Shown piece after piece: positions 1 to 8,736 of a stretch of 64,000 nucleotides of DNA. Under the pieces are notes generated by a model. The model made no database searches and was not told the origin of the DNA. It saw only the letters and a program-made list of their open reading frames with translations. The position numbers and the translations under genes are program-made. Origin of the DNA: a virus. Numbering within the stretch: the stretch's first letter is position 1; the number at the start of each line of letters is the position of its first letter. Location of the stretch: positions 1 to 64,000 of IMG/VR virus record IMGVR_UViG_3300009702_000018. The stretch is one strand, 5' to 3'.

Positions 1-9
1 ATTATTATT

Positions 10-153
10 ATTCTAGAATCTATTCTAGAATCTATTCTAGATTCTATTCTATATTCTATTCTAGATTCTATTCTAGAATCTATTCTAGAATCTATTCTAG
101 AATCTATTCTAGAATCTATTCTAGATTCTATTCTAGAATCTATTCTATATTAT
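10..153. repeat. 12-bp tandem repeat array
   Basis: About twelve head-to-tail copies of a 12-bp unit, consensus ATTCTAGAATCT with variants ATTCTAGATTCT and ATTCTATATTCT. Each unit is centred on the palindrome TTCTAGAA or a variant of it. A related unit with ATTCTAGTATAT continues to about 205. The array contains no spacers and no open reading frame. Its AT-richness and symmetry would suit an origin, a partition site or a protein-binding array, but nothing here decides between them. It begins close to the window edge, so its true length is unknown. Confidence 0.85.
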
Positions 154-242
154 TACTATTCTAGATTCTAGTATATATTCTAGTATATATTCTAGTATAT
201 ATTATTATATTATTTGTTATATTAGTATATATTAGTATACAT

Positions 243-667: not shown

Positions 668-1795
668 TTGGATATTAATAAATTTAAAAATAGTTTATCA
701 GAAAATTTTGAATATTTAACCAAACAACTTATCACATGTATTGGTAATAAAAGATCATTACTTCCAAATATTCATACCACTGTTCTTCACATAAAAAAAC
801 GATTGAAGAAAAATCATCTTCGCATATTAGATGCTTTTTCAGGATCTGGTATTGTTAGTCGATATTTTAAACAACATGCAAAATATTTAGCAACCATTGA
901 CATTGAAGATTATGCCACAGTCATTGCTCGTTGTTATCTAAAAAATAAAAGTGAAATTAATTTATCAGCCATTAAAAAAATAGTAATAAATTTTAACAAC
1001 ATTGTTGAAAATGTTGAATTTCCAATGGGATTTATAGAAGAAATGTATGCACCAAAATCAATTAATCATATAACCAAAGACGATCGTGTTTTCTATACTC
1101 CCAACAATGCTCGCCGCATTGACAACTATCGAAGACTTATTATGGATCTTCCAATATCTATTCAAAATCTTTTTATTGGACCTCTTTTAAGTGAAGCATC
1201 AATACATACTAACACATCTGGAGTATTTAAGGGATTTTACAAAGATAAAAAAACTAAAGTGGGACGCTTTGGTGGAACAAATGGAGATGCATTAAAACGC
1301 ATACTTGGACAAATTCAACTTGCTGTTCCAATTCTTAGTCAATATGAATGCGAAGTAGATGTGTTTCAAGGTGATGCAAATAAAATTGCTCCGACATTAA
1401 AAGATCTTGATCTTGTTTATTTGGATCCTCCTTATAATCAACATCCATATGGGTCAAATTATTTTATGCTAAACTTGATAGCCAATTACAAAAAACCAGA
1501 AAAAGTAAGCAAAGTATCTGGAATCCCAGTTGATTGGAGACGATCTAAATATAATAGTCGTTCTTATTTTTATGATCAGTTTTACAATTTATTGAAATCA
1601 CTACAATCTCGTTTTTTAATCATTTCATTTAATAATGAAGGATTTATTTCTCGAAATGATATAATTCAAATGTTAAAACATATTGGCTCTGTAGAAATAA
1701 CCGATATTAAATATAATACTTTTCGTGGTTGTCGAAACATTAACAATCGAGAAAAATATGTAAACGAACAACTTTTTCTTGTCGAAAAATTCTAA
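668..1795 (+). CDS. D12-class DNA adenine-N6 methyltransferase
   Basis: Predicted to methylate adenine N6 in DNA using S-adenosylmethionine. The motif I loop DAFSGSG is at residues 55-61 and the catalytic DPPY at 253-256, followed by NQHPYGSNYF, which is typical of the D12 (alpha-order) family. An early GNKRSLL segment fits the FxGxK-like N-terminal motif. The start is TTG, chosen because AAAGGAG sits just upstream and no better start exists. No restriction enzyme partner is adjacent, so it is best read as an orphan protective enzyme. The recognition site cannot be read from sequence. Its leader and first codons are duplicated at the next gene. Confidence 0.88.
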   Translation: MDINKFKNSLSENFEYLTKQLITCIGNKRSLLPNIHTTVLHIKKRLKKNHLRILDAFSGSGIVSRYFKQHAKYLATIDIEDYATVIARCYLKNKSEINLSAIKKIVINFNNIVENVEFPMGFIEEMYAPKSINHITKDDRVFYTPNNARRIDNYRRLIMDLPISIQNLFIGPLLSEASIHTNTSGVFKGFYKDKKTKVGRFGGTNGDALKRILGQIQLAVPILSQYECEVDVFQGDANKIAPTLKDLDLVYLDPPYNQHPYGSNYFMLNLIANYKKPEKVSKVSGIPVDWRRSKYNSRSYFYDQFYNLLKSLQSRFLIISFNNEGFISRNDIIQMLKHIGSVEITDIKYNTFRGCRNINNREKYVNEQLFLVEKF

Positions 1796-2013: not shown

Positions 2014-2199
2014 ATGAATGATGTCATTTTATACGAAATTAGCTACTATGGTTACCTATTCAATTGTCCTCACTGCAAATCCATAAACAATATTGAAAAA
2101 ATTAAGAAATATGAAAAAGATGAACATCAAGAGATTGTGTGTTGGAAGTGTGGCAGAATAATTGACATATATTACAAACCATTAATTCTTAAAAAGTAA
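2014..2199 (+). CDS. Small zinc-ribbon protein
   Basis: A 61-residue protein with two cysteine pairs, CPHC near residues 18-21 and CWKC near 43-46, spaced as in a zinc ribbon. There is no other domain. It sits 11 bases ahead of the alanyl-tRNA synthetase start and its end contains the ribosome binding site for that gene. Small phage zinc ribbons bind nucleic acid or proteins; which applies here is unknown. Confidence 0.65.
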   Translation: MNDVILYEISYYGYLFNCPHCKSINNIEKIKKYEKDEHQEIVCWKCGRIIDIYYKPLILKK

Positions 2200-2210
2200 G
2201 GAGATAAATC

Positions 2211-3512
2211 ATTAAAACCGCTGATATTAGAAATTCATTTTTAAATTTTTTTAGAAAAATGGGACATCGTTTGATTCCTTCATCGTCAGTCATCCCAAAA
2301 AATGATTCTACTTTGTTATTTACTAACGCAGGAATGAATCAATTCAAAGATATTTTTGCAGAAAAAAAGAAACCCGATTACCCACGAGCAGTTAGTTGTC
2401 AAAAATGCATAAGAGCAAGTGGGAAACATAATGATTTAAATCTTGTTGGATTCACTCCAAGACATCATACTTTTTTTGAAATGCTTGGGAACTTTTCTTT
2501 TGGTGATTATTTTAAAGAAAAGGCTATTTATTTAGCTTGGGAATGGCTTACAAAAGAATTAAAAATTTCTCCAAATAATTTATATGTTACTGTGTATAAT
2601 GCAGATAATTATACTTTTGATTTATGGAAGAAGATAGCTTCAGAATTAAAAGATGATCATATTTTATATTTTGGCGAAAAATATAATTATTGGTCAATGG
2701 GCAAAACAGGTCCTAATGGAGTATGTACAGAAATACATTATGATTTAGGAAAACAATTTGGGAATAGTAAATCTGATGTTGTGAATGGAAACACTAATCG
2801 TTTTATAGAAATATGGAACTTGGTATTTCCACTATTTAATCAACAATCCAACGGGAAAATAACTCGTCTTTCCAAACCTTATGTTGACACAGGGGCGGGA
2901 TTAGAGAGATTAGCATCTATTATGCAAAATGTTAATTCTAATTATGATATTGATATTTTTCGCAATTTAATTAAAGCCATTTCAGATTTAGCAAATAGGA
3001 AATATGAAGATGATCAATTTGCTCACCAAGTTATTGCTGACCATTTAAGAGCATTAACTTTTGCTATTGCCGATGGTTCTGAAATTTCCAATAAGGGTCG
3101 CAATTATGTTTTAAGACGCATACTTAGACGTGCTTCTTATTATGGTTCTTTATTAGAAATTGAAGAACCCTTTATTTATAAATTAGTTCCAGTTTTAGTA
3201 GATGAAATGGGAGATGTTTATCCAGAAATTAAAAAAAGACAAGAACATATTATGAGGACAATTAAAAATGAAGAAGAAATATTTAGTAATACTTTACATA
3301 GAGGAGTAAGAAAAACAGAAAAAATTATTCAAAAAACAAACGGTAAAATCATTGATGGTAAAGATGTTTTTATATTATACGACACTTATGGGTTTCCATA
3401 TGATTTGACAGAAGCGATCGCAAAACAAAACGAAATGAGTCTTGACAAAAATGGATTTGAAAAATTTATGAATGAACAGAAAAAAAGATCGCAAACATCA
3501 AGGAAAAATTGA
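2211..3512 (+). CDS. alaS: Truncated alanyl-tRNA synthetase (catalytic plus tRNA-recognition domains only)
   Basis: Class II synthetase expected to attach alanine to tRNA-Ala. Visible are the motif 2 region with RHHTFFEMLGNFSFGDYF, the motif 3 sequence TGAGLERLA, and the late DTYGFPYDLTEAI segment of the tRNA-recognition region. It stops after about 433 residues, where bacterial AlaRS would continue into the editing and C-Ala domains, so both are absent. The first ATG is at 2259, but codons 2211-2258 read IKTADIRNSFLNFFRK, a clear match to the normal AlaRS N-terminus. AAGGAG at 2198-2203 is seven bases before ATT 2211, and a stop lies two codons upstream. ATT is therefore the likely start. 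No tRNA-Ala gene lies in the window. Confidence 0.88.
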   Translation: MKTADIRNSFLNFFRKMGHRLIPSSSVIPKNDSTLLFTNAGMNQFKDIFAEKKKPDYPRAVSCQKCIRASGKHNDLNLVGFTPRHHTFFEMLGNFSFGDYFKEKAIYLAWEWLTKELKISPNNLYVTVYNADNYTFDLWKKIASELKDDHILYFGEKYNYWSMGKTGPNGVCTEIHYDLGKQFGNSKSDVVNGNTNRFIEIWNLVFPLFNQQSNGKITRLSKPYVDTGAGLERLASIMQNVNSNYDIDIFRNLIKAISDLANRKYEDDQFAHQVIADHLRALTFAIADGSEISNKGRNYVLRRILRRASYYGSLLEIEEPFIYKLVPVLVDEMGDVYPEIKKRQEHIMRTIKNEEEIFSNTLHRGVRKTEKIIQKTNGKIIDGKDVFILYDTYGFPYDLTEAIAKQNEMSLDKNGFEKFMNEQKKRSQTSRKN

Positions 3513-3543: not shown

Positions 3544-4344
3544 ATGAAACAAAAAAATAAAATCAACGATATAGATTTAAATAAATGGAAGGAATATAAA
3601 GATATTCTTACTGATAGTTTGTGGATTTTTAAAAGACGAGATAATTCGGGATCTCATAATGCAAATTATTGGGGAAATTTTATTCCCCAAATACCAAATC
3701 AAATGATGAAAAGATTTACTAAAAAGGGGGATTGGATTTTAGATACATTTGCTGGTTGTGGGACAACTTTAGTAGAAGCACAAAGATTGGGTAGAAATTC
3801 AATTGGTATAGAGTTGCAGTCCGAAATTGCCGACATAGCCAATCAGATTATTCAATCAGAGCCAAATAAATATAACGTTATTTCTAATGTTATAAACGAC
3901 AATAGTTTATCCGTTGATTATAAAGAATTAATAAAAAAATATAATATAGATTCAGTACAATTATTGATTATGCATCCGCCATATTTTGATATAATAAAAT
4001 TTAGCGATGATCCAAATGATCTTTCCAATGCTTCTTCTTTAGAAGATTTTCTTCAAATGATGGAGAAAGTTGTGGAAAAAGCATTGACTATTTTAGATAA
4101 AGGAAGATATTTTGCTTTGGTGATGGGAGATAAATATTCAAAGGGTGAATGGATACCATTGGGATTTTTAACAATGGAACGAATTCTAAAAAAAGAAGTT
4201 TCTCTTAAAAGCATAATTGTAAAAAACTTTTAAGAAACGTTTGGAAAAAGAAATCAAAAATCATTATGGAGGTATCGTGCTTTAATGGGCGGTTTTTATA
4301 TTTTCAAACATGAATATATTTTTTTGTTCAAAAAGGATAATTAA
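3544..4344 (+). pseudogene. DNA methyltransferase interrupted by in-frame TAA
   Basis: SAM-dependent DNA methyltransferase with DTFAGCGTT at residues 67-75 and HPPYFDIIKF starting at 144. The open frame ends at TAA 4231-4233, giving 229 residues. Directly after it the same frame continues for 36 codons reading ETFGKRNQK, SLWRYRALMGG and FYIFKHEYIFLFKK to TAA 4342-4344. That tail looks like the normal C-terminus of this family, so the gene appears interrupted by a nonsense codon. A sequencing error or readthrough are alternatives. The catalytic motifs lie before the stop, so the short product might still fold. Confidence 0.72.
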
Positions 4345-4692: not shown

Positions 4693-5972
4693 TGAAATAT
4701 CCAGAAGAATTCATCAATAAAATAATTCAAGGTAATTGCATTAAAGTCATGCAAGAAATCCCCGAAAATTCTATTGATTCAATTATTACAGATCCCCCAT
4801 ACGGTTTATCTTTTATGAAAAAAGAATGGGATTCTTTTAAGAAATCAAAGGGATATGAATTTCAAATAAAAAATCTTAAAATGAAAACCAATCAAACTAA
4901 ATTAGAACAAAATATGAATTTTTTATCTTGGAATGTAGCATGGATGAATGAAGCAAAGCGAGTATTAAAACCAGGTGGAATTATTCTTATATTTTCGGGT
5001 ACAAGAACACAGCATTTAACAGGAATGGCTTTGGAGTTATCGGGTTTTGTTATTGCAGATACTTTAATGTGGTTATATGGTTCTGGGTTTCCCAAAGCAA
5101 TGGAAATTGGGAAAATGATTGATAAATCTAAAAATTTAGATCGAGAAGTAGTTGAAAAAAAATATAGTTCAGATATAACAAAGGGCAATTATATTAGAGG
5201 AGGAAAGAAAAATATAAATAGAATTATAGAAAAAACAAAACCCAATAGTCAAGAAGCAATTGATTGGAATGGATATAGAACAATTGGATTGAAGCCAGCC
5301 TATGAACCTATTATTCTTGCATATAAACCTCGTGAAGGAAATTATGTAAATAATATATTAAAATATAAAACAGGTGCTTTGAATATCGATGAATGTAGAA
5401 TTGGAGGAGAAGATAAAATTAAACCTTCATACAGAATAGACAAAAAATCGACAGTAATACCAATAGATAAGAAAAAAAAATATTTAAAAGATTTAGGAAG
5501 ATTCCCATCGAATGTTATTATAAATGAAGAAGTCGCAAATCAGATAGATCAACAATCGGGTATTAAAAAAACAATAGCTCAAAAAAATTATGGGTTTAAT
5601 AAAAAACCTTTATCAAAGACAAATACTTTTGCATCAAGAGGGACATATATTCCACGAGAAGATGTGGGGGGAGCATCAAAGTTCTTTTATTGTGCCAAAG
5701 CCACCCCCCAAGAAAAAATGAATAATAATCATCCAACTGTCAAACCAATAAAATTAATGACGTGGCTATGTCAATTAACCAATTCTCCATATGAAAATGT
5801 TGTATTGGATCCATTTGCGGGATCTGGATCTACAATGATTGCTTGTATGAGAACAAAAAGAAATTTCATAGGGATTGAGAAAGAAGAAGATTATGTAAAA
5901 ATAGCAAAAGAAAGAATTCAAAAAGAAAAAAATAAAAAAGAATCAAAACGAACATTAATAAGGAAAAAATAA
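4692..5972 (+). CDS. Beta-class DNA methyltransferase (N6-adenine or N4-cytosine)
   Basis: Catalytic DPPY is at residues 34-37, near the N-terminus, and the SAM-binding DPFAGSGST is at 373-381, near the C-terminus. This IV-then-I order is the beta class. The middle 230 residues would hold the target-recognition region. A HPTVKPIKLMTWL segment before motif I is typical of this family. Length (426) is normal. The last 20 residues are strongly basic. No cognate nuclease is adjacent, so a protective role is likely. Adenine versus cytosine cannot be decided by eye. Confidence 0.88.
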   Translation: MKYPEEFINKIIQGNCIKVMQEIPENSIDSIITDPPYGLSFMKKEWDSFKKSKGYEFQIKNLKMKTNQTKLEQNMNFLSWNVAWMNEAKRVLKPGGIILIFSGTRTQHLTGMALELSGFVIADTLMWLYGSGFPKAMEIGKMIDKSKNLDREVVEKKYSSDITKGNYIRGGKKNINRIIEKTKPNSQEAIDWNGYRTIGLKPAYEPIILAYKPREGNYVNNILKYKTGALNIDECRIGGEDKIKPSYRIDKKSTVIPIDKKKKYLKDLGRFPSNVIINEEVANQIDQQSGIKKTIAQKNYGFNKKPLSKTNTFASRGTYIPREDVGGASKFFYCAKATPQEKMNNNHPTVKPIKLMTWLCQLTNSPYENVVLDPFAGSGSTMIACMRTKRNFIGIEKEEDYVKIAKERIQKEKNKKESKRTLIRKK

Positions 5973-5986
5973 TATTTAATAATGCA

Positions 5987-6934
5987 ATGTTTAATTTAAC
6001 TTACAGACCCGAATCTTTTTCAGAGTTTATTGGGAATACAACCCAAATAGAAAACTTGCTGAAAAAATACCCAAAGTGGCCTTCTACTTTTTTATTAACA
6101 GGTCCTCCTGGAATTGGAAAAACAACATTGGCTCGATTAATAGCAAAACAGCTAAAATGTAATTCACTTAATATTAAAGAAATTGATGCGGGTCATGATA
6201 GAGGAATAGATACTATAAGAAATATAATTAAAGAATCTTATAATCGTCCTCTTATAGGTAAAACAAAAGTTTATATTTTTGATGAATGTCAGAGCTTAAC
6301 AAGAGAAGCTCAAGAAGCTCTTTTAAAGACAACAGAAGAAGCTCCACCAAATACTTATTTTATATTTTGTTCAACAAATCCACAAAAAATCATTAAAGCA
6401 TTGCTTGCAAGATGTAAAGCTGGATATATAAATTTAAAACCAATGAATAAACAAGAACTTGCAATACTGATTAAAAGAATTTGTGAACAAGAAGGAATAA
6501 AAATTGAAGGAATAATCAAAAAAATAGCAATTCTTTGTGTTAAAAATTCAGAGGGTATTCCACGTAATGCTATAATGCTTTTTGATAGATTCCATCAATA
6601 TACTGATATTCAAGCAGTAGCAGATGAAATGAAAAATATTGATGAAATATATGTGGAGCAAGAAATTTGGGATATGGTCAATGCTCTGGATTCAAAAAAT
6701 ATGATTCAATTTTTAAAATATTTTTCTGAAATGAAAAGGGGCAATTATGAGGGATTTAGAATTACAATGGGAAATATTTTTAAAAAGAAATTATTAAAAG
6801 CAATGCAAAAAACAGATTTAACAAATATTCAAAAATATATAGACATACTACAAATATTTAATTCCCCCGTTAATAATGAATTAGGAGATATAGAATTAAT
6901 TTATAGATTTGGAAAATATTATGGTACTTTATAA
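5987..6934 (+). CDS. Clamp-loader ATPase (RFC / DnaX-like)
   Basis: AAA+ ATPase that would load the polymerase sliding clamp. It opens with YRPESFSEFIG, the usual clamp-loader start. Walker A is GPPGIGKTT at residues 39-47, Walker B contains FDECQ near 97, and the SRC-like arginine-finger segment reads LLARCKAG. The DnaX zinc module is missing, as in RFC and phage small loaders. At 315 residues it is a single-subunit-type loader. It works with the DnaE-like polymerase at 24183; no clamp or delta subunit was recognised in the window. Confidence 0.88.
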   Translation: MFNLTYRPESFSEFIGNTTQIENLLKKYPKWPSTFLLTGPPGIGKTTLARLIAKQLKCNSLNIKEIDAGHDRGIDTIRNIIKESYNRPLIGKTKVYIFDECQSLTREAQEALLKTTEEAPPNTYFIFCSTNPQKIIKALLARCKAGYINLKPMNKQELAILIKRICEQEGIKIEGIIKKIAILCVKNSEGIPRNAIMLFDRFHQYTDIQAVADEMKNIDEIYVEQEIWDMVNALDSKNMIQFLKYFSEMKRGNYEGFRITMGNIFKKKLLKAMQKTDLTNIQKYIDILQIFNSPVNNELGDIELIYRFGKYYGTL

Positions 6935-7169
6935 ATTTAATGAAGAACAAATAAAAAAAGCAAAACTTTTTATTAAAAAATTAAAAGTTAAAAGAAAAAT
7001 GTGGGAAAAAGAACGAGACAAGGCAGATAGAGATAGAAAACGATTTCCCAAGAAATATTATCATAACATAACAGAGAGAATGAAAGACGCAGAAAAAGAA
7101 ATTAGACATATAAATAAAAAAATTAAAGAATTGGAACAAGTGGTAAAATATGGAGAGTTTGAATTTTGA
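6921..7169 (+). CDS. Small coiled-coil protein
   Basis: About 82 residues, strongly charged (Lys, Glu, Arg), with heptad-like spacing that suggests one long coiled coil. ATG 6921 is preferred. A TTG at 6909 in the same frame would add four residues. It overlaps the clamp-loader end by 14 bases and the next gene start by four. Function unknown. Confidence 0.6.
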   Translation: MVLYKFNEEQIKKAKLFIKKLKVKRKMWEKERDKADRDRKRFPKKYYHNITERMKDAEKEIRHINKKIKELEQVVKYGEFEF

Positions 7170-7558
7170 AAAAGGTTTATGTGGCTGGTGCTTACAATGG
7201 AGATAATATTGGTGAAATATTAAATAATATGAGAATAGGATTAAAGGTTAGTTCACATTTATTATCTTTAGGATATGCTGTCTTTAGTCCTTGGACGGAT
7301 TTTCAATTATTCTTAACTGACGATTGGGATGCAAAAAAAATAGCACAAAAAGCAAAGGCAGCTTCTTTAGAATGGCTTAAAGTTAGTGATGCTATATTTG
7401 TAGTTCCAAATGAAAAAAATTATACATCCAAAGGATTAAAAGAAGAAAGGAAAGTAGCGAAATATTTTAATATTCCCATATTTGAAGATATAAAGAAAAT
7501 GGATAAGTATTTAAAAAATAAAGAAGATAAAGAAGCGTTAGTACCTTATAATAAATGA
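7166..7558 (+). CDS. Nucleoside 2-deoxyribosyltransferase-like / DUF4406-type protein
   Basis: The fold signature is visible: KVYVAGAYN at the start, then GYAVFSPWTDFQ, then SLEWLKVSDAIFVVPN with GLKEE following. These match the nucleoside deoxyribosyltransferase-like superfamily, which handles nucleosides or nucleotides. The exact substrate is not predictable. It starts at TTG overlapping the previous stop (TTGA) and overlaps the next gene by four bases, so it is in a tight operon. A role in nucleotide supply or base modification is inference. Confidence 0.7.
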   Translation: MKKVYVAGAYNGDNIGEILNNMRIGLKVSSHLLSLGYAVFSPWTDFQLFLTDDWDAKKIAQKAKAASLEWLKVSDAIFVVPNEKNYTSKGLKEERKVAKYFNIPIFEDIKKMDKYLKNKEDKEALVPYNK

Positions 7559-7773
7559 ACAAAGAATATTATATAATAAAAAAAGCCCCACGACAATTAC
7601 TTGAAATGGGTATATATCTTAATGATTTCATTGAATTAAAATATGTAATGGGTAATATTTTAATTAAAAATCTTAAAAAAAATATTTTAATAGGAATTAA
7701 TAAAAATATATTAAAAGAAATGGAATTAGAGAAAATCCATCATATAGAGAAAAATGATTATATAAAAAAATAA
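7555..7773 (+). CDS. Hypothetical small protein
   Basis: A 72-residue protein not recognised. It is rich in Ile, Leu, Lys and Asn. It starts at an ATGA overlap with the previous gene. No motif or membrane segment is convincing. Confidence 0.5.
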   Translation: MNKEYYIIKKAPRQLLEMGIYLNDFIELKYVMGNILIKNLKKNILIGINKNILKEMELEKIHHIEKNDYIKK

Positions 7774-7785
7774 AAGAGATTGACG

Positions 7786-8736
7786 ATGGAAATAAAAATG
7801 AAATATAATGAAATAATTAAGGGTGATTGTATAGAAATTATGAAAAATATACCCGATAATTCTATTGATATGACATTTGCTGATCCTCCTTTTAATTTGG
7901 GTAAACAATATAATGTATATGATGATACAAAAAAAACTAATGTTTATTTAGATTGGTGCAAGAGTTGGATAAATGAAATGGTTAGAATTACAAAACCTAC
8001 TGGTTCTATATTTGTACACAATATACCTAAATGGCTTACTTATTATTCAAATTTTTTAAATGAAATCGCCTATTTTAAAAATTGGCTTGTATGGGATGCA
8101 TTATCAAAACCTGCAGGAATGGGGTTACAACCTGCTCATTATGGTATATTATATTATCATAAAAGTTCAAAGAAAGCTAAATTTTATAAAACTCGATATC
8201 CACATAAACGTTGTAGTGAATGTGGTTGTCTTGAAAAACATTATGGTGGTAGCCCAGTACATCCTTTTGGTCCATTAATTTCTGATGTATGGACAGATAT
8301 TCATCGTGTGAGAGGTAAGAAAAATAGGGATAAACATCCTTGTCAACTACCAATACCACTATTAGAAAGAATTATTCTTATGGTTACAGATGAAAATGAT
8401 ATTGTATTGGATCCCTTTGTTGGTACGGGAACAACAGCTATTGCTGCTAAAAGATTGGGAAGAAGATTTATTGGAATAGATATGGATGATTCATATGTAA
8501 AAATTTCCAAAAACAAACTTGAAAAAACATCATCAAATTCTAAAGTTGGTGATGTTTGGGTTAGTTTTTATCATAATAAAATACGAACTATCAGAAATAA
8601 AGATTGGACAAAATTATCATCATATTTCCCAGTTGCTAAAGACATAAAAGATATTAATTTTAAGGTAATGAATCCAAAAGCAAGAAGTATTATATCAAAT
8701 AAAAATATACGTTTTAAAGAGGCAAAATCATATTAA
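7786..8736 (+). CDS. Beta-class DNA methyltransferase
   Basis: Catalytic DPPFNLG lies near residue 33 and the SAM-binding DPFVGTGTT near 209, again the beta order. A middle segment with RCSECGC could bind zinc. HPCQLPIPLLERII precedes motif I, as in N6-adenine/N4-cytosine enzymes of this type. ATG 7786 is used here; TTG 7780 is an alternative two codons upstream. About 60 residues after the catalytic domain form a C-terminal extension without a recognised motif. It is the fourth DNA methyltransferase gene in 8 kb. Confidence 0.86.
   Translation: MEIKMKYNEIIKGDCIEIMKNIPDNSIDMTFADPPFNLGKQYNVYDDTKKTNVYLDWCKSWINEMVRITKPTGSIFVHNIPKWLTYYSNFLNEIAYFKNWLVWDALSKPAGMGLQPAHYGILYYHKSSKKAKFYKTRYPHKRCSECGCLEKHYGGSPVHPFGPLISDVWTDIHRVRGKKNRDKHPCQLPIPLLERIILMVTDENDIVLDPFVGTGTTAIAAKRLGRRFIGIDMDDSYVKISKNKLEKTSSNSKVGDVWVSFYHNKIRTIRNKDWTKLSSYFPVAKDIKDINFKVMNPKARSIISNKNIRFKEAKSY

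Follow-up and report, generated by a model that had tools for sequence, protein, structure and literature searches.

The window analysed here comprises the first 64 kb (64,000 nucleotides) of a 103,045-bp virus record from IMG/VR (IMGVR_UViG_3300009702_000018), and carries near its beginning a gene for an alanyl-tRNA synthetase (AlaRS) of bacterial type that has neither an editing domain nor a C-Ala module. This phage-encoded mini-AlaRS is likely to have been captured from a Zixibacteria-like bacterium and to charge host tRNA-Ala during infection, being translated from an AUU start codon. Phage mini-AlaRS of bacterial type are thereby found in two lineages with the same cut, against one natural case described before by its authors' account, the Tupanvirus enzyme TuAlaRS.

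Domain content and descent of the phage enzyme

The open frame extends from position 2208 to 3509, preceded by an in-frame TAA at 2205-2207 and closed by a TGA. Its product matches the Pfam family PF01411 with 568 bits over profile positions 1-433 of 552, and the NCBIfam family alaS (TIGR00344) with 533 bits (cut-off 457) over positions 1-431 of 847. It holds the class II catalytic domain of bacterial AlaRS with motifs 1-3, and its C-terminal end is that of the crystallised E. coli fragment 441N. Neither the protein nor any other part of the 103,045-bp record matches the editing domain tRNA_SAD (PF07973), and the C-Ala-type domain DHHA1 (PF02272) had no match across the record either. These profile spans and absences bear out the original prediction of an AlaRS without editing domains; as an observation that prediction is confirmed, and its interpretation is partly supported.

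The catalytic motifs and both residues that recognise G3:U70 are preserved. The motif 2 region (RHHTFFEMLGNFSFGDYF) is invariant or nearly so in a 49-sequence alignment, and motif 3 contains a change from M to A but retains D227 and G229. In E. coli AlaRS the base pair G3:U70 of tRNA-Ala is read by N303 and D400 (PMC10036535), and this Asn/Asp pair is kept in the phage enzyme as N295 and D392. The AlphaFold model has a mean pLDDT of 94, and its best PDB matches by Foldseek are the catalytic fragments 9jc7 and 3hxu. The E. coli fragments 441N and 461N (PDB 3hxu) resemble the phage enzyme in domain span and fold (Foldseek TM 0.95, 47% identity), but are laboratory truncations, and N461 is a weak tRNA binder, with a Kd for tRNA-Ala above 32 uM (PMC10036535).

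The nearest relatives of the phage enzyme are the chromosomal AlaRS of Zixibacteria. Both groupings of the phage sequence with them in the trees received high SH-aLRT support (100 and 99), and the phage sequence falls inside a Zixibacteria clade at 99. Identity over the full length reaches 62% to Zixibacteria, against at most 54% in the other phyla aligned. The Zixibacteria genes mostly share the ATT start and its Shine-Dalgarno sequence, but encode about 860-930 residues where they are not cut by a contig end, including the editing and C-Ala domains. From these sequence comparisons, Zixibacteria are the probable donor lineage. The base composition of the phage gene is now near that of the phage, with a GC content at third codon positions (GC3) of 0.17 against 0.13-0.18. 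An apparent second copy, 69% identical, in one Zixibacteria genome was rejected, as its frame enters a run of Ns, after which the sequence is unrelated. Phage terminase gave no convincing match in 133 Zixibacteria genomes, so that no prophage links the phage to a host.

A probable AUU start in the phage and in Zixibacteria

The 16 codons that precede the first ATG (IKTADIRNSFLNFFRK) score 32.0 bits against a profile of 47 other AlaRS, while the best other 16-codon window in the six frames of the record (205,994 windows) scores 9.4 bits. In the AlphaFold model, helix 1 occupies residues 4-17, within this segment, with a pLDDT of 96-98, and the segment is also present in the aligned AlaRS relatives. 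It thus belongs to the gene, as had been predicted, and among the homologs examined there is none that begins at the internal ATG.

The distance from the sequence TAAGGAG to ATT2211 is the modal spacing among the genes of this phage. ATG2259 has no Shine-Dalgarno match before it, which is weak evidence because 29 of 112 phage frames also have no good match. Since ATC2208 immediately precedes ATT2211, the frame alone does not choose between the two, and it is the comparison with Zixibacteria that favours ATT2211. A start that actually lies at ATC2208 or ATG2259, or at an ATG that the assembly got wrong, is quite unlikely. ATC2208 is in frame and aligned with the ATG of another phage mini-AlaRS (L016, see below), and a single contig leaves room for a sequence error; against this, 34 of 60 independently assembled Zixibacteria genomes have ATT at precisely the homologous position, and the codon preceding it is not conserved there. 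Starting at ATG2259 would remove helix 1, and the Shine-Dalgarno spacing fits ATT2211 best. The position is conserved, has no canonical alternative and lies at a proper distance from a Shine-Dalgarno sequence. Given the start data of the Zixibacteria alaS genes, an error at the phage ATT is very improbable, and an inherited AUU start is the best reading; from these comparisons, the AUU start is very probably real.

The alaS start regions of those 60 Zixibacteria genomes hold, at the codon homologous to ATT2211, ATT in 34 cases, ATC in 8, ATA in 1, ATG in 9, TTG in 3 and other codons in 5, the last belonging to branches where alaS seems to start elsewhere. In 19 of the 60 the frame contains no ATG, GTG or TTG from the preceding stop down to this codon, and 17 of these 19 have ATT there; their first canonical codon comes 10-41 codons downstream and would cut into or past helix 1. 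Some of the Zixibacteria genes have an in-frame upstream TTG, GTG or ATG that could serve as the start instead. Among the 43 genes with an Ile codon at this position, 23 have GAGG 9 bases 5' of it, and the Ile codon is ATT in 34, against 6 of 36 at the Ile codon that follows in these genes (Fisher p = 2.6e-8). A canonical start is found near this position in all 78 alaS loci of other phyla, so that genes without one number 19/60 in Zixibacteria and 0/78 elsewhere (p = 2e-8). In the same Zixibacteria genomes, all 17 serS genes whose start could be read begin with ATG. Conserved RNA structure was looked for around the Zixibacteria alaS start and none was found. Thus the ATT start proposed in the original prediction is likely, but it is not a phage peculiarity: rare as a start codon elsewhere, ATT is the codon at which alaS on Zixibacteria chromosomes usually starts. 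It follows that the Zixibacteria genes are probably annotated with a wrong or upstream start.

Initiation at AUU reduces the amount of protein made and is subject to modulation by IF3 (PMC13009471). The E. coli genes infC and pcnB and cvfC1 from S. aureus (PMC13009471) combine an AUU start with a Shine-Dalgarno sequence, as alaS does in the phage and in Zixibacteria; in those genes AUU lowers the yield in an IF3-modulated fashion, and the same may be proposed for the phage gene by analogy. An AUU start was not reported for any aminoacyl-tRNA synthetase gene in the literature found, nor was AUU described there as a common start of Zixibacteria alaS, in a search that covered few subscription journals. 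Conservation of AUU between the phage and the donor phylum was not to be expected in an essential gene, and would represent a new case of start-codon-based control. A wider reading can be put forward only tentatively: across much of the phylum, AUU would act on alaS as an IF3-sensitive brake, and the phage would have captured the front half of the gene together with this brake and would use it, free of editing, during infection.

The Zixibacteria infC genes mostly have no ATG, GTG or TTG near their 5' end, and mostly show ATA some 16 codons upstream of the VRLIG motif. Their start is likely AUA, from sequence, which would fit the known pattern of IF3 autoregulation and agrees with non-canonical starts described for infC elsewhere (PMC13009471).

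Other viral AlaRS and the role of the phage enzyme

The closest characterised case is TuAlaRS, which has neither editing nor C-Ala domains, charges G3:U70-containing tRNA-Ala and an acceptor-stem microhelix, and replaces yeast AlaRS; its authors called it the only natural aminoacyl-tRNA synthetase with an aminoacylation domain alone (PMC10036535). The phage enzyme shares this architecture, being virus-encoded and descended from a cellular AlaRS, and its domain content makes it a viral mini-AlaRS, of which that enzyme is the one characterised example. The two differ in that TuAlaRS is of eukaryotic descent and has P321 and T416 in place of the Asn/Asp pair, whereas the phage enzyme is of apparently Zixibacterial descent, keeps the pair, counts 433 residues, belongs to a phage and has an ATT start codon. 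Losing this pair and binding the acceptor stem in a new mode is a trait of TuAlaRS and not of the architecture.

A single-protein scan of IMG/VR for near relatives gave only a fragment, while two alignment scans returned six viral contigs (L016-L018, L037, L039 and L040) and many full-length bacterial genes. The contigs L016, L017 and L018 (IMG/VR 3300023371, 3300018430 and 3300024268; 411, 291 and 90 kb) come from three metagenomes and encode the same 445-residue AlaRS, L016 and L018 being identical over 11 kb. Like the phage enzyme of the window, it is cut at the same domain boundary and keeps the Asn and Asp residues, but it starts with ATG, lies away from Zixibacteria in the tree and has a tRNA cluster nearby. 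In L016 this cluster (7248-8112, about 0.9 kb downstream of the mini-AlaRS gene) holds ten tRNA genes, of which four are for tRNA-Ala and four for tRNA-Glu; the tRNA-Ala show G3:U70 in two of the four as folded by ARAGORN, and in the other two after re-pairing by eye. Phage AlaRS of about 430 residues, a search for which had been suggested as a check, thus exist elsewhere, at about 430-445 residues. The window and L016 enzymes occupy different parts of the tree, and two separate captures are likely, not proven, because the approximately unbiased (AU) test leaves a common origin possible (p = 0.108). With two phage lineages cut at the same point, the minimal size of an AlaRS and the tolerance or use by phages of mischarging with Ser or Gly become directly testable.

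L040 carries a decayed mini-AlaRS (5001-5875) with frame breaks, a deletion of about 130 residues and the same end at the domain boundary. L037 encodes a 665-residue AlaRS (4977-6974) in which no editing domain was recognised; the N/D pair is replaced by E289 and N384, and the C-terminal part, which has no Pfam match, closes with a GG-containing stretch resembling C-Ala. In two other phage contigs (L002, 10-729; L039, 4977-5513), alaS fragments covering 150-240 residues from the N-terminal part stand next to structural genes. The matches inspected in the 'phages' collection were full-length bacterial genes or otherwise longer AlaRS.

As to function, the phage would have taken the front half of alaS, with the catalytic and tRNA-recognition domains and the start codon, from a Zixibacteria-like bacterium that was probably a host, and the gene would since have come to end at the domain boundary and to acquire the phage base composition. 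Judging from the residues kept, the enzyme would form alanyl-adenylate and then charge tRNA-Ala through G3:U70 in the acceptor stem, without proofreading or the tRNA-binding C-Ala module, much as TuAlaRS does. Its substrate would be host tRNA-Ala, because the phage has no tRNA genes (none were found by ARAGORN in the record). AUU initiation, by analogy with the genes above and as in most Zixibacteria alaS, should hold the yield low and sensitive to IF3. Without editing, the enzyme may mischarge tRNA-Ala to some extent with Ser or Gly, and a lytic phage may be able to tolerate this.

Several observations weigh against such a role. A bacterial-type AlaRS without C-Ala may be weak unless compensated, since N461 binds tRNA-Ala poorly. 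The phage protein deviates at 8 of the 108 highly conserved columns of the alignment, whereas 45 of the 47 other sequences deviate at fewer, and the IMG/VR scans provided no close relative of the gene for measuring selection. A terminase alignment search led to a related phage of 111 kb, G002, with a terminase 53% identical; it is colinear with most of the record yet does not have the AlaRS gene, which makes the latter an optional gene. This absence, together with the altered columns, the weak start codon and the decay seen in L040, would also suit a relic, that is, a front half of alaS from a host, carried by chance, poorly expressed, useless and heading for loss. Such a fate is nevertheless unlikely: 434 codons remain open in a genome of 71% A+T, the catalytic and G3:U70-reading residues are retained, the reading frame closes cleanly at a domain boundary 31 bp before the next gene, and the same cut is found in another phage that bears tRNA-Ala genes. 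The GC3 value, near that of the phage, moreover indicates a long residence.

The original prediction had also considered a non-translational use of alanyl-tRNA. The enzyme could supply alanyl-tRNA or alanyl-adenylate to another reaction, or interfere with the host AlaRS, and the phage indeed has no tRNA of its own; as a general fact, AlaRS paralogs can gain other roles, such as the aa:CP ligases (PMC9437257). A role of this kind is, however, very improbable, as no alanyl-tRNA-using partner was found among the proteins scanned, which are part of the phage proteome, and both tRNA-reading residues are kept; nothing was found in favour of the earlier suggestion itself. Mixed dimers with the host AlaRS are argued against by the missing C-Ala helical subdomain, which is the dimerisation part of bacterial AlaRS (PMC10036535). 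Charging of host tRNA-Ala is thus preferred as the role of the enzyme.

Genomic setting

The coordinates of the gene, its elements and its neighbours are collected in the table below. If the map is circular, the AlaRS gene lies in a variable stretch that extends from the end of an AAA ATPase gene at 98,652 to the clamp loader gene at 5,987. The record ends in a 111-bp terminal direct repeat of the low-complexity TATTCTAGAATC type (window 1-160), and because of this low complexity its circularity and completeness are uncertain. The phage PolIII gave no matches when used as a query.

Table. Features of the mini-AlaRS gene and its surroundings (window positions)
Feature	Position	Strand	Basis
D12-class DNA methyltransferase, upstream neighbour	668..1795	+	PF02086, 2.5e-18
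Small zinc-ribbon-like open reading frame (ORF), below family cut-offs	2014..2199	+	Domain scan
Shine-Dalgarno TAAGGAG, overlapping the stop of the zinc-ribbon-like ORF	2197..2203	+	Sequence; spacing statistics
Mini-AlaRS gene, 433 codons and TGA	2211..3512	+	PF01411, TIGR00344; Foldseek best matches 9jc7 and 3hxu
ATT, most likely start codon	2211..2213	+	Homologous position in Zixibacteria alaS
16 codons 5' of the first ATG, conserved N-terminal helix of AlaRS	2211..2258	+	Profile score, model, aligned relatives
Motif 2 region RHHTFFEMLGNFSFGDYF, residues 85-102 counted from ATC2208	2460..2513	+	49-sequence alignment
Motif 3, DTGAGLER	2886..2909	+	Alignment to Salmonella/E. coli AlaRS
N295, equivalent of E. 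coli N303, predicted to read U70	3090..3092	+	Alignment; role from PMC10036535
D392, equivalent of E. coli D400, predicted to read G3	3381..3383	+	Alignment; role from PMC10036535
TGA stop, end of the tRNA-recognition domain	3510..3512	+	Sequence; next ORF at 3544
N6/N4 DNA methyltransferase, downstream neighbour	3544..4233	+	PF01555, 2.1e-22
Clamp loader, first gene of the part colinear with G002	5987..6934	+	PHROG 5846; synteny

Besides the AlaRS gene, the window carries between 15210 and 23846 a GTP cyclohydrolase I gene (15210), two QueD-like ORFs (16400 and 16833), a QueE-like ORF (20450) and a gene for a distant TGT/DpdA-like protein (22647), the QueD- and QueE-like ORFs having been read by eye. 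From these gene contents, the region is probably devoted to 7-deazaguanine DNA modification. Further on in the record, at 98728-101916, about 10 tandem ORFs of 102-124 residues resemble diverged copies of one another.
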